Assembly: GCA_017992555.1 (NCBI GenBank)
Contig: JAGOOK010000007.1
Span: 1-51,107, forward strand
Origin: Caldisericia bacterium
GTDB taxonomy: Bacteria > Caldisericota > Caldisericia > JAAYUI01
Reading direction: 5' to 3'
DNA length: 51,107 nt
The position numbers and the translations under genes are program-made. Of the stretch, positions 25,650 through 28,419 are shown piece by piece (position 1 is the stretch's first letter; each line of letters starts with the position of its first letter). Below the pieces are notes generated by a model. That model worked only from the letters and a program-made list of their open reading frames with translations, had not been told where the DNA came from and made no database searches.

Positions 25650-26093
25650 ATGAATATTTGCCCAAAATGCAAAACAATATGTGATGAAACCGATGAAATT
25701 TGTCCAAATTGCGGTGAAGATTTTTCTGATTATGACGAAGAAGAACTTGAATCAGGGTTCGAACCAGAAATTCTTTACATGGCTGACAACCTGGCAGAAG
25801 CCCAGGCCATAGTAGAATTTTTGAGAGAGAATGACATTGCTGCAACCTACATTGATCAATCTTCGCCAACAAGGTTCATGACCGCAATGAGACCTTCTTC
25901 AGCCAACTCAGTTCCAGTTTTAGTTCCAGATGAATCAATTGAGGAGGCACAAGAGATGCTGGAGGAATATATGGCGGCAGTTCCAGATCTTGCCAGTGAA
26001 TTTCAGGATGACGAAGAAGACGATTTTGACGATGATTTTGACGATGAAGACGATGATGAGGAAGAGGAGTATAAAGGCTCTCAAGTTTGCTGA
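25650..26093 (+). CDS. Zinc-ribbon, DUF2007-like protein with an acidic tail
   Basis: 147 residues in three parts. An N-terminal zinc ribbon has two CxxC pairs (CPKCK and CPNCG, residues 4-22). A DUF2007-like domain ('putative signal transducing protein') runs about 38-110 (LAEAQAIVEFLRENDIAATY; VPVLVPDESIEEAQEMLEEY). A very acidic tail of almost only D and E covers about 118-140. There is no signal peptide. DUF2007 proteins often stand alone and have no firmly known function; the acidic tail could mimic nucleic acid or bind cations (inference). Two terminator hairpins follow. Confidence 0.75.
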   Translation: MNICPKCKTICDETDEICPNCGEDFSDYDEEELESGFEPEILYMADNLAEAQAIVEFLRENDIAATYIDQSSPTRFMTAMRPSSANSVPVLVPDESIEEAQEMLEEYMAAVPDLASEFQDDEEDDFDDDFDDEDDDEEEEYKGSQVC

Positions 26094-26150: not shown

Positions 26151-26197
26151 TTCAAGAAACCATGGAAGTTTATTCGTGCATTTGTGCTCAAAAAAGC

Positions 26198-26229
26198 AAA
26201 AAAGGCCAGCTTTTAAGCTGGCCTTTTTT
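26198..26229. terminator. Second bidirectional terminator hairpin
   Basis: AAAAAAGGCCAGCTT / AAGCTGGCCTTTTTT (26198-26212 with 26215-26229), T tracts on both strands. It lies 27 bp beyond the stop of the minus-strand gene that follows and is probably that gene's terminator. Confidence 0.92.
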
Positions 26230-26256
26230 GTGGAAAATCTAGATTTGAGCTACTCT

Positions 26257-26790
26257 CTACTCTCTTCCAGTCCCTGGTGAAACAATGTTGATTGTGACCG
26301 GACGCTTACGATATCTGACATCAAGGTTTGGATTGACTGTGCGTTCTGTCCTGCCTGCTTTGTCGGTTGCCCTTGTCAGAAGCTGGTAGGTTGAGCCCTG
26401 AATTGATGTGTTGAGCTCATAGGACCACTCATTTGTCTTGGTGTTCAGATTTGCCTTGAACCATGTTGAACCGCCATCAAGCGAGATCTCGATGTTGTTG
26501 ACTGGGGCCTGGCCCTTGCATTCACCCATTAGATTAAATGGAAGTCTGATTGTGTCATTCTCAAGAACATTGCTGCACCAGCTCTTTGGCGTCGGATCCG
26601 ATGCCAAATCGGTATCAGCTGACCCACCGGTGGCTGCACCTGCGGGTGGTGGTGGAGGCGCACCGCCTCCTCCAGAAGGACATCAGCCATATGGTCTGAA
26701 AGCCGTTGAACCATTGGTTCCATAGGTCACCGGCATCATCAAACCACAGGCTAAGGCAAACAGTACTGAAACAACTAGTAGTTTTTTCAT
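26257..26790 (-). CDS. Small secreted Ig-like protein interrupted by one in-frame UGA (candidate recoding or nonsense)
   Basis: Starting at ATG 26790 (AAAGGAG eight bases upstream), the frame gives a good signal peptide (MKKLLVVSVLFALACGLMMP, then VTYG) and continues to residue 35 (FRPYG). Codon 36 is TGA (26685-26683). The same frame then stays open for 141 more codons: Cys, a GGGG/PPPPP linker and an Ig-like domain (SLDGGSTWFKANL, ATDKAGRTERTV). Without readthrough the signal peptide and the domain are separated, and no ATG follows the stop (the first candidate is a TTG at 26607). A hairpin with a 7-bp perfect stem and GUG loop starts a few bases after the UGA. Options are selenocysteine insertion, a real nonsense mutation (TGG to TGA), or a sequencing error. 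I rank nonsense/error and recoding about equally. Confidence 0.6.
26650..26674 (-). promoter_or_regulatory. Hairpin 3' of the in-frame UGA (SECIS-like geometry)
   Basis: On the mRNA strand: UGG-A-GGAGGCG, loop GUG, CGCCUCC-A-CCA, i.e. 7 bp, an A/A mismatch and 3 more bp. The loop starts 19 nt after the UGA, and its first base is G. It also encodes Gly-rich then Pro-rich residues, whose codons are complementary, so the hairpin could be incidental. Confidence 0.4.
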
Positions 26791-27225
26791 ATGTTTGGCT
26801 CCTTTCGCCTGAATTTATGCTAGTATTCAATCACAATTCAATCTTAAATGCAATGGTCCATTTTGGTGATATTTACACTAGTTTTGTGCTAGGTTCATAA
26901 ATCATCACGCAAACGCTGTATTTTCTTACAAACAACAATTTTATATTTTCGCTTATTTTTCGGTAATATATCATCATATCATAAAAAGAATCCAAAATTT
27001 ACCAGGTTGAATGATAGCGTGATAACATTCAACAATAATTTCACATTTTGAATCTTGTTGGCCTGTTATCAAATCAAATCAGAACTAAACTATATGAAAT
27101 CAAAATTTCACAAATTTTAGAAGTGAAGGTGATTTTAAGAAAACAATGGTAAAAAGCGAAATATCTGGAAGCGGTTTATTCTTATTTAACCAGAATAATC
27201 AATTTAGACACTAATATAATTCTAT
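26791..27225. other. AT-rich 435-bp divergent intergenic region
   Basis: It holds the minus-strand promoter for the UGA-interrupted gene (TTGAAT and a TAAATT box about 18 nt apart near 26815-26845) and the deoB -10 box at the right end. One perfect 8-bp inverted repeat, GTTGAATG / CATTCAAC (27006-27013 with 27026-27033, 12-nt spacer), lies in the middle. I see no gene, RNA or terminator in it. Confidence 0.5.
27215..27220 (+). promoter_or_regulatory. deoB -10 box, leaderless layout
   Basis: A perfect TATAAT ends 5 nt before ATG 27226, with no Shine-Dalgarno. No clear -35 hexamer is seen. Confidence 0.5.
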
Positions 27226-28419
27226 ATGAACGGGAAAAGCGCTGTTCTGTTGGTCATTGATGGTCTAGGAGTTGGGTGTCTACCTGATGCTGCACAGTAC
27301 GAGGATACAGGCACATCAACTCTCTCCCATGCCACCGAAAATGGCAAATTAAATTTACCATATCTCACAAAATTTGGTCTGTACAAACTTTGTGGCAGGG
27401 ATGGACCAAGCCAGGCATCAACAGGTCGCATGGTTCCTAAATCATCAGGCAAATCAACAGTAGAAGGCCACTGGGAGATGATGGGTCAGCCAAAAACTAA
27501 TCCTTTTAACATTTTCCCAGATGGGTTTTCTTCAGAGATCATGGATACTATATCTAAGCTCATAGGGAGAGGTCTCCTTGGTGGTCAACCAGCTTCAGGA
27601 ACAAAAATCATCGAACAGCTTGGAGAACGTCACCAAAAAACTGGCATGCCGATAATCTATACATCAGCCGATTCCGTACTGCAGGTTGCAGCCCATGAGA
27701 ATACGATACCAGCAAACGAACTTTACGAGATTTGCAAAACAATAAGGAACAACTTTAATCAACCAGACAGCTTTGCGAGGGTAATTGCCAGGCCATTTGC
27801 TGGTGAGCCAGGAAATTATTACAGAACCTCCAGGAGAAGGGATTTTACACTCAAGATCCCGGAACCAAATGTCCTTTCAGAGCTCAAGAAACGCAATATA
27901 AATATATCTGGGGTGGGGCGCATAGCTGACCTTTTCCCAGAATACCTTGATACTTTTGATAATCCACCCGGCAATATTGAGTGCCTTGAGCGAACAAAAA
28001 TGTATAGGCAGATGTATCATGGTTTCGTCTTTGCCAATCTTGAAGACCTGGACATGCTCTATGGCCACAGACGCGACAAGCAGGGATATGCAAAATCACT
28101 TGCAGAGCTTGATGAGGCATGGCCCAAATTCCTCATGTCTCTTGCAAATGATGATCTTCTAATAGTCGCGTCTGATCATGGCTGTGACCCAACACATGAG
28201 AAACACACCGATCATACAAGAGAATACACCATGTTGATGTGCTACATGAAAGGTTATGAGGGCGTTGATCTTGGGACAAGGCAATCGCTTTGTGATGTTG
28301 GAGCGACAATCCTGGATTTTTTTGGGATAAATCCTTTGTGTGGTGAATCTGTGCTAAAGGATGCCACTAGCTGCAAAAAGAAAACCAAGACCTCAACAAA
28401 TTTCTACAACAACAATTAA
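27226..28419 (+). CDS. deoB: Phosphopentomutase
   Basis: 397 residues, usual length. It interconverts ribose-1-phosphate (or deoxyribose-1-phosphate) and the 5-phosphate, linking nucleoside salvage to sugar metabolism, in the cytoplasm. Alkaline-phosphatase-superfamily metal and phosphate motifs are present: LLVIDGLGVGCLPDA, GKSTVEGHWEMMG (the family usually has T-x-T-GHWE; here the second Thr is Glu, while the first is kept), TSADSVLQVAAHE and SDHGCDPT...TDHTREYTM. The message appears leaderless. Its TAA stop overlaps the stop of the convergent P-loop ATPase gene (TTAA), with no terminator between them. Confidence 0.95.
   Translation: MNGKSAVLLVIDGLGVGCLPDAAQYEDTGTSTLSHATENGKLNLPYLTKFGLYKLCGRDGPSQASTGRMVPKSSGKSTVEGHWEMMGQPKTNPFNIFPDGFSSEIMDTISKLIGRGLLGGQPASGTKIIEQLGERHQKTGMPIIYTSADSVLQVAAHENTIPANELYEICKTIRNNFNQPDSFARVIARPFAGEPGNYYRTSRRRDFTLKIPEPNVLSELKKRNINISGVGRIADLFPEYLDTFDNPPGNIECLERTKMYRQMYHGFVFANLEDLDMLYGHRRDKQGYAKSLAELDEAWPKFLMSLANDDLLIVASDHGCDPTHEKHTDHTREYTMLMCYMKGYEGVDLGTRQSLCDVGATILDFFGINPLCGESVLKDATSCKKKTKTSTNFYNNN

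Follow-up and report, generated by a model that had tools for sequence, protein, structure and literature searches.

A single UGA codon interrupts a gene for a predicted exported protein

The window, by which we mean the whole stretch of 51,107 nucleotides that was analyzed, comes from a 70%-complete genome of the phylum Caldisericota. On its reverse strand we located a frame that starts with ATG (26790), continues for 34 more codons, is interrupted by TGA at codon 36 and then runs through 141 sense codons to a TAG stop (26259-26257). A preliminary description had placed a signal peptide and an Ig-like part in this one frame, split only by the TGA and with a Cys codon next to it, and all of these elements are indeed present. 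The gene and its features are the following.

26799-26805, (-): ribosome-binding site AAAGGAG, read directly from the sequence
26257-26790, (-): whole gene, for a predicted exported selenoprotein of 177 residues with selenocysteine (Sec) at position 36 and a TAG stop; open except for UGA-36
26719-26790, (-): signal peptide, about residues 1-24, recognized by inspection from MKK and a hydrophobic stretch; cleavage site approximate
26683-26685, (-): UGA codon 36, read as Sec; UGA in five of five genomes
26680-26682, (-): Cys codon TGT directly 3' of UGA-36; the Cys is invariant
26605-26679, (-): Gly/Pro-rich linker, residues 38-62, probably disordered, as judged from its sequence and a pLDDT of about 30
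26650-26674, (-): SECIS-like hairpin with 3+7 bp by folding; its GUG loop (26661-26663) begins 19 nt 3' of the UGA
26281-26553, (-): putative Ig-like beta-sandwich domain, about residues 80-170, from sub-threshold domain matches and strands at 80-170 in a low-confidence model
26197-26230, (-): intrinsic terminator directly 3' of the TAG stop, with 15 pairs, a 4-nt loop and a T-run, found by a consensus scan

With U written at the UGA, the protein reads MKKLLVVSVLFALACGLMMPVTYGTNGSTAFRPYG-U-CPSGGGGAPPPPPAGAATGGSADTD..., followed by the Ig-like domain. The motif around UGA-36, FRPYG-U-C-P, lies between the signal peptide and the Gly/Pro-rich linker. From ribosome-binding site to terminator the gene forms one transcription unit, and it appears to stand alone without an operon partner. 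Upstream lies a divergent phosphopentomutase-like gene (27226-28419, (+)), and the convergent downstream neighbor (25650-26093, (+)) encodes a zinc-ribbon protein (CPKC...CPNC) that has a C-terminal Cys and a long tail rich in Asp and Glu; both genes were named by inspection. Rfam gave no match within the window. The in-frame start listed downstream of the UGA, TTG at 26607, would yield 116 amino acids lacking a signal peptide, in line with the earlier statement that no start codon restores one.

We compared the protein with known families and structures. Pfam and NCBIfam returned sub-threshold matches only, at about residues 65-163 (Big_13, Mo-co_dimer and SorT/SoxC), and PDB sequence and fold searches agree weakly with Ig-like and sulfite-dehydrogenase C-terminal matches; Foldseek gave no match at E <= 0.001. 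An identity as sulfite dehydrogenase was rejected: at 27 bits the match to the SorT/SoxC models is far below their cut-offs of 420-570, it covers no more than the last ~75-90 aligned model positions, and the molybdenum-cofactor catalytic domain is absent. The structure model predicts a helix for residues 3-15, within the signal peptide; it is poor overall, with pLDDT near 30 around the Sec, and leaves the arm unreadable. Neither this poor model nor the domain searches contain a thioredoxin fold. No selenoprotein model of NCBIfam release 20 matches the protein at E up to 5, and its architecture is absent among the 119 selenoprotein families tabulated in 2026 (PMC13188914).

The UGA codon and the residues that follow it are conserved

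The gene was found in 5 of the 54 Caldisericota genomes searched, all of one family: G000 (the window genome), G039, G040, G041 and G042. Each copy contains a single internal TGA and is preceded by the same AAAGGAG 5' of the ATG. The preliminary description had asked whether homologues carry UGA, Cys or Trp at codon 36; the alignment has UGA at this position in all five genomes, and neither TGG nor any other sense codon in any of them. The most distant member, G042, shares 58% protein identity and retains FRPYG-U-CP intact. The same UGA is present on the separately assembled contigs JAKIZT010000002, JAAYUI010000012 and JAGOOO010000053, which probably represent the G039, G040 and G041 genomes, and we have kept the count at five. 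The codons flanking the UGA vary synonymously among genomes (GGC/GGT, TGT/TGC). Across the alignment, Sec36, Cys37 and Cys91 are the only invariant residues able to do chemistry.

Downstream of the UGA and hairpin, dN is 0.021 and dS 0.41 between G000 and G040 (dN/dS about 0.05); between G000 and G042, the latter being a join of two overlapping contig ends, dN is 0.38 and dS, near saturation, is 2.1 (dN/dS about 0.18). In the first codons 3' of the UGA, dN ranges from 0 to 0.23, and the residues between the UGA and the TTG at 26607 are conserved as protein. Strong purifying selection acts on the sequence that follows the UGA. Contig ends divide the gene in G041 and G042; the two pieces of the G042 copy (G042:C26:1-463 and G042:C8:139686-139922) differ at two residues of their overlap (L/P, I/M), which suggests a strain mixture at the assembly break.

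Neither a homologue with Cys at position 36 nor any relative outside the five genomes was found among the 54 phylum genomes, in a peptide-pattern scan of genome contigs, or in viral contigs and plasmids, which leaves this protein without the customary Sec/Cys pair of homologues and counts against the Sec reading. Plasmid matches cover the Ig-like part only, two of these in sulfite oxidases. A match in Opitutae (L022) was dismissed as a chance match in an unrelated frame, and another in G029 (L163), antisense to listed frames, looks like a chance match as well.

The same genomes encode selenocysteine machinery and other UGA genes

The preliminary description had named selA, selB, selC and selD as the genes to look for, and selA, selB, selD and a tRNA-Sec are all present in the window genome. 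The respective models score 495 bits for selA (cut-off 268), 324 bits for selB (cut-off 242), 254 bits for selD (cut-off 125) and 78.6 bits for tRNA-Sec (gathering 47). The tRNA-Sec follows directly downstream of selB (L001:1501-3461, that is G000:C10:127516-129476), and the coordinates in G040, G041 and G042 show this arrangement too. Among the 54 phylum genomes, selA, selB and selD score above cut-off in exactly the five carriers of the window gene; because these five form one clade, this co-occurrence counts as one phylogenetic contrast, not five. The tRNA-Sec reaches 73-79 bits in four of the five. In G039 no tRNA-Sec rises above background and the selB match is also incomplete, perhaps the result of a contig break. 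A few other genomes of the phylum have matches to the tRNA-Sec model near 48 bits, which we read as ordinary long-arm tRNAs. A genetic code with TGA as Trp was rejected, since UGA is the commonest ordinary stop and ends 295 of 680 long frames.

We surveyed the window genome for further UGA-bridged frames. Of these, 569 were uncovered by long frames in other readings, 150 had a nearby Cys or U-His, and 42 had a hairpin fitting the model described below; the screen was designed post hoc, and of the 42 most must be false positives. Ranked by hairpin energy, the window gene comes first, with selD in fourth place and a 779-codon frame for an exported protein in sixth. Codon-usage and hexamer scores proved too blunt for such genes, picking up mostly adjacent genes and antisense frames. 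In selD the in-frame UGA occurs in all five genomes, within TDCAG-U-ASKWGP (AGCAG-U-ASKWGP in G042); the loci are L068 (G000:C14) and L049-L052, with CAG-U-ASKWGP as their motif.

The 779-codon frame (L157:2815-5151, (-), corresponding to G000:C10:93815-96151) encodes a second exported UGA protein, with a signal peptide, a thioredoxin-like UxxC domain (CEIFVEPN-U-TKC), Ig-like/BACON domains and a C-terminal Cu_amine_oxidN1 domain. It matches the Omp28-related selenoprotein model (NF045500) weakly. Its UGA is conserved in the five genomes, being kept in G042 at 36% identity, and aligns with a CxxC Cys of a paralogue in the same genome. In the hairpin of this gene the stem ACUGC/GCAGU gives way to CCGAU/AUCGG with the loop CGUG[CA] retained, although the G042 form falls short of the -7.5 kcal/mol limit. 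On comparison, this protein proved unrelated to that of the window gene.

The downstream hairpin fits the bacterial SECIS model but is largely expected from Gly/Pro coding

The bacterial SECIS model asks for a loop of 3-9 nt with G in its first two positions, 16-37 nt from the UGA, and an energy <= -7.5 kcal/mol (PMC13188914). When the 60 nt after UGA-36 are folded, 8 nt stay unpaired, the stem counts 3+7 bp and includes an A-A mismatch, and the GUG loop begins at 19 nt, which reproduces the hairpin as first described. The window-gene hairpin fits the model in G000, G040 and G042, and in all homologues its distance from the UGA is suitable and its loop opens with G. The GUG loop resembles the GUC and CGUG loops of two control genes, selD and the Omp28-like gene; in selD the G-first loop lies 17 nt after the UGA.

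We then compared each hairpin with random synonymous recodings drawn from genome codon usage. For G000, 99% of recodings fit the model and 55% are at least as stable, and for G040 the values are 94% and 49%. The earlier fit to the SECIS model therefore stands as far as geometry and loop are concerned but discriminates poorly, and the caution that Gly-rich followed by Pro-rich coding yields hairpins automatically was well placed. G042 has Gly-Ala-Ala-Ala where the window protein has Gly-Gly-Gly-Gly-Ala, and only 19% of the recodings of its hairpin region (CPGGAAAPPPPPP) fit the model, 6% being as stable. The same comparison for selD of G000 gave 19% and 0%. The hairpin would suit a SECIS but is weak evidence by itself, exceeding chance only in light of the distant G042 homologue, and it is the weakest part of the evidence for selenocysteine. 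Because Gly/Pro coding makes it nearly automatic in the window genome, the case for selenocysteine rests instead on UGA conservation, coding constraint and the machinery.

Decoding of UGA-36 and possible roles of the protein

Machinery, a UGA in five of five homologues and purifying selection after the UGA together support the earlier selenocysteine reading, and UGA-36 is very probably decoded as Sec. We judge the window gene to be a genuine selenoprotein gene whose family has not been catalogued and which would use a known decoding mechanism. SelD and SelA would make Sec-tRNA(Sec), and SelB, by analogy with established bacterial Sec biology, would deliver it at UGA-36, aided by the downstream hairpin. 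The product would then be exported via its signal peptide. About 12 residues into the mature protein would come the Sec-Cys pair, placed on a flexible arm rich in Gly and Pro that connects to the Ig-like domain.

We weighed other accounts of the interrupted frame. A single base change would open it, and a TGG at this codon had been put forward as an alternative; neither a misread TGG nor a decaying pseudogene explains the gene, because the UGA is kept in five genomes, several of them separately assembled, down to 58% identity with synonymous sites near saturation, and is followed by sequence under strong purifying selection (dN/dS about 0.05-0.18, with synonymous changes at the flanking codons). 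We consider the probability of an error or a pseudogene negligible. It is also highly improbable that the locus makes two separate products, with the signal peptide as one fragment and the remainder translated from an internal start: the TTG at 26607 could provide that start, but the residues that precede it, back to the UGA, are conserved as protein, and a product begun there would not be exported. Of the stop codons, UGA is the leakiest, and suppression without selenium, by a near-cognate tRNA such as that for Trp or by programmed readthrough, would generate a short and a long form; the weak SECIS evidence is compatible with such a process. The short form would, however, be a bare signal peptide, the genomes encode a full Sec system along with two further UGA genes of Sec type, no homologue has TGG or another sense codon at this position, and the neighboring Cys suits Sec. 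Selenium-free suppression is thus very unlikely.

If UGA-36 is decoded as Sec, the likeliest role of the protein may be that of an exported Sec-Cys redox arm, a tentative assignment made because Sec adjoins Cys in a disordered exported arm. The pair could cycle between selenolthiol and selenenylsulfide outside the cytoplasm and might trade electrons with the other exported UGA protein (UxxC, Omp28/thioredoxin-like) of the same genomes, while the Ig domain might hold the arm on a partner or surface. Counted against this role are the missing operon partner and thioredoxin fold and the poor structure model. The main alternative is a selenoprotein in which the Sec-Cys pair would serve to bind a metal ion or hand on selenium, and not for thiol redox chemistry. 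A disordered arm without a thioredoxin fold would suit this, and a relation to metals or mercury is noted for several tabulated selenoproteins in which Cys and Sec are neighbors (PMC13188914); on the other hand, there are no metal-transport neighbors, and the invariant candidate ligands are limited to Sec36, Cys37 and Cys91. We regard such a role as possible but somewhat unlikely. Returning to the redox arm, the most specific proposal is an exported selenoprotein of new architecture, with Sec-Cys on a disordered N-terminal arm and an Ig-like domain, that would take part in a lineage-specific extracytoplasmic selenium redox relay with the UxxC Omp28-like selenoprotein, its Gly/Pro linker serving as both protein hinge and SECIS stem. 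In its entirety this proposal is doubtful.

The gene adds a probable selenoprotein family that the current catalogue (PMC13188914) does not list, and it indicates that Sec is used in the phylum Caldisericota; our literature search found no paper reporting this. One paper lists selenocysteine utilization for 'Ca. Lithacetigenota' as a function outside the core set of Caldiserica and Coprothermobacterota (PMC9751293). Automatic annotation would stop such a gene at the UGA or miss it. It also provides a concrete illustration of the way in which the composition of the protein itself could give rise to a SECIS, because the coding of the linker produces the hairpin almost automatically.

Comparison with known systems

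We finally compared the window protein with systems that share some of its features. SelD in its Sec form (TIGR00476) occurs in the same genomes and likewise has an in-frame UGA followed by a hairpin with a G-first loop, but it is a cytoplasmic enzyme of known family without sequence relation to the window protein. The Omp28-related selenoprotein (NF045500) is an exported Sec protein with a distant UxxC relative, its UGA invariant, in these genomes; it has a thioredoxin-like UxxC domain, whereas the window protein lacks such a domain and gives no match to the model. The C-terminal Ig-like dimerization domain of SorT, SoxC and SorA (PF03404) is weakly similar to residues 65-163, yet the matches are below cut-off, the window protein lacks the molybdenum domain, and at that position those enzymes carry no Sec. 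In the GxUC CopZ-like 2Fe-2S protein and the CU metal proteins (PMC13188914), Sec also adjoins Cys, but in domains other than those of the window protein. The C-terminal arm of mammalian thioredoxin reductase (PMC10957665) offers an analogy only: it is mobile, carries adjacent Cys and Sec and could form a selenenylsulfide. The two proteins are not homologous, and in the window protein the order is reversed (Sec-Cys) and the pair is found near the N terminus of a predicted exported protein rather than on a flavin enzyme.
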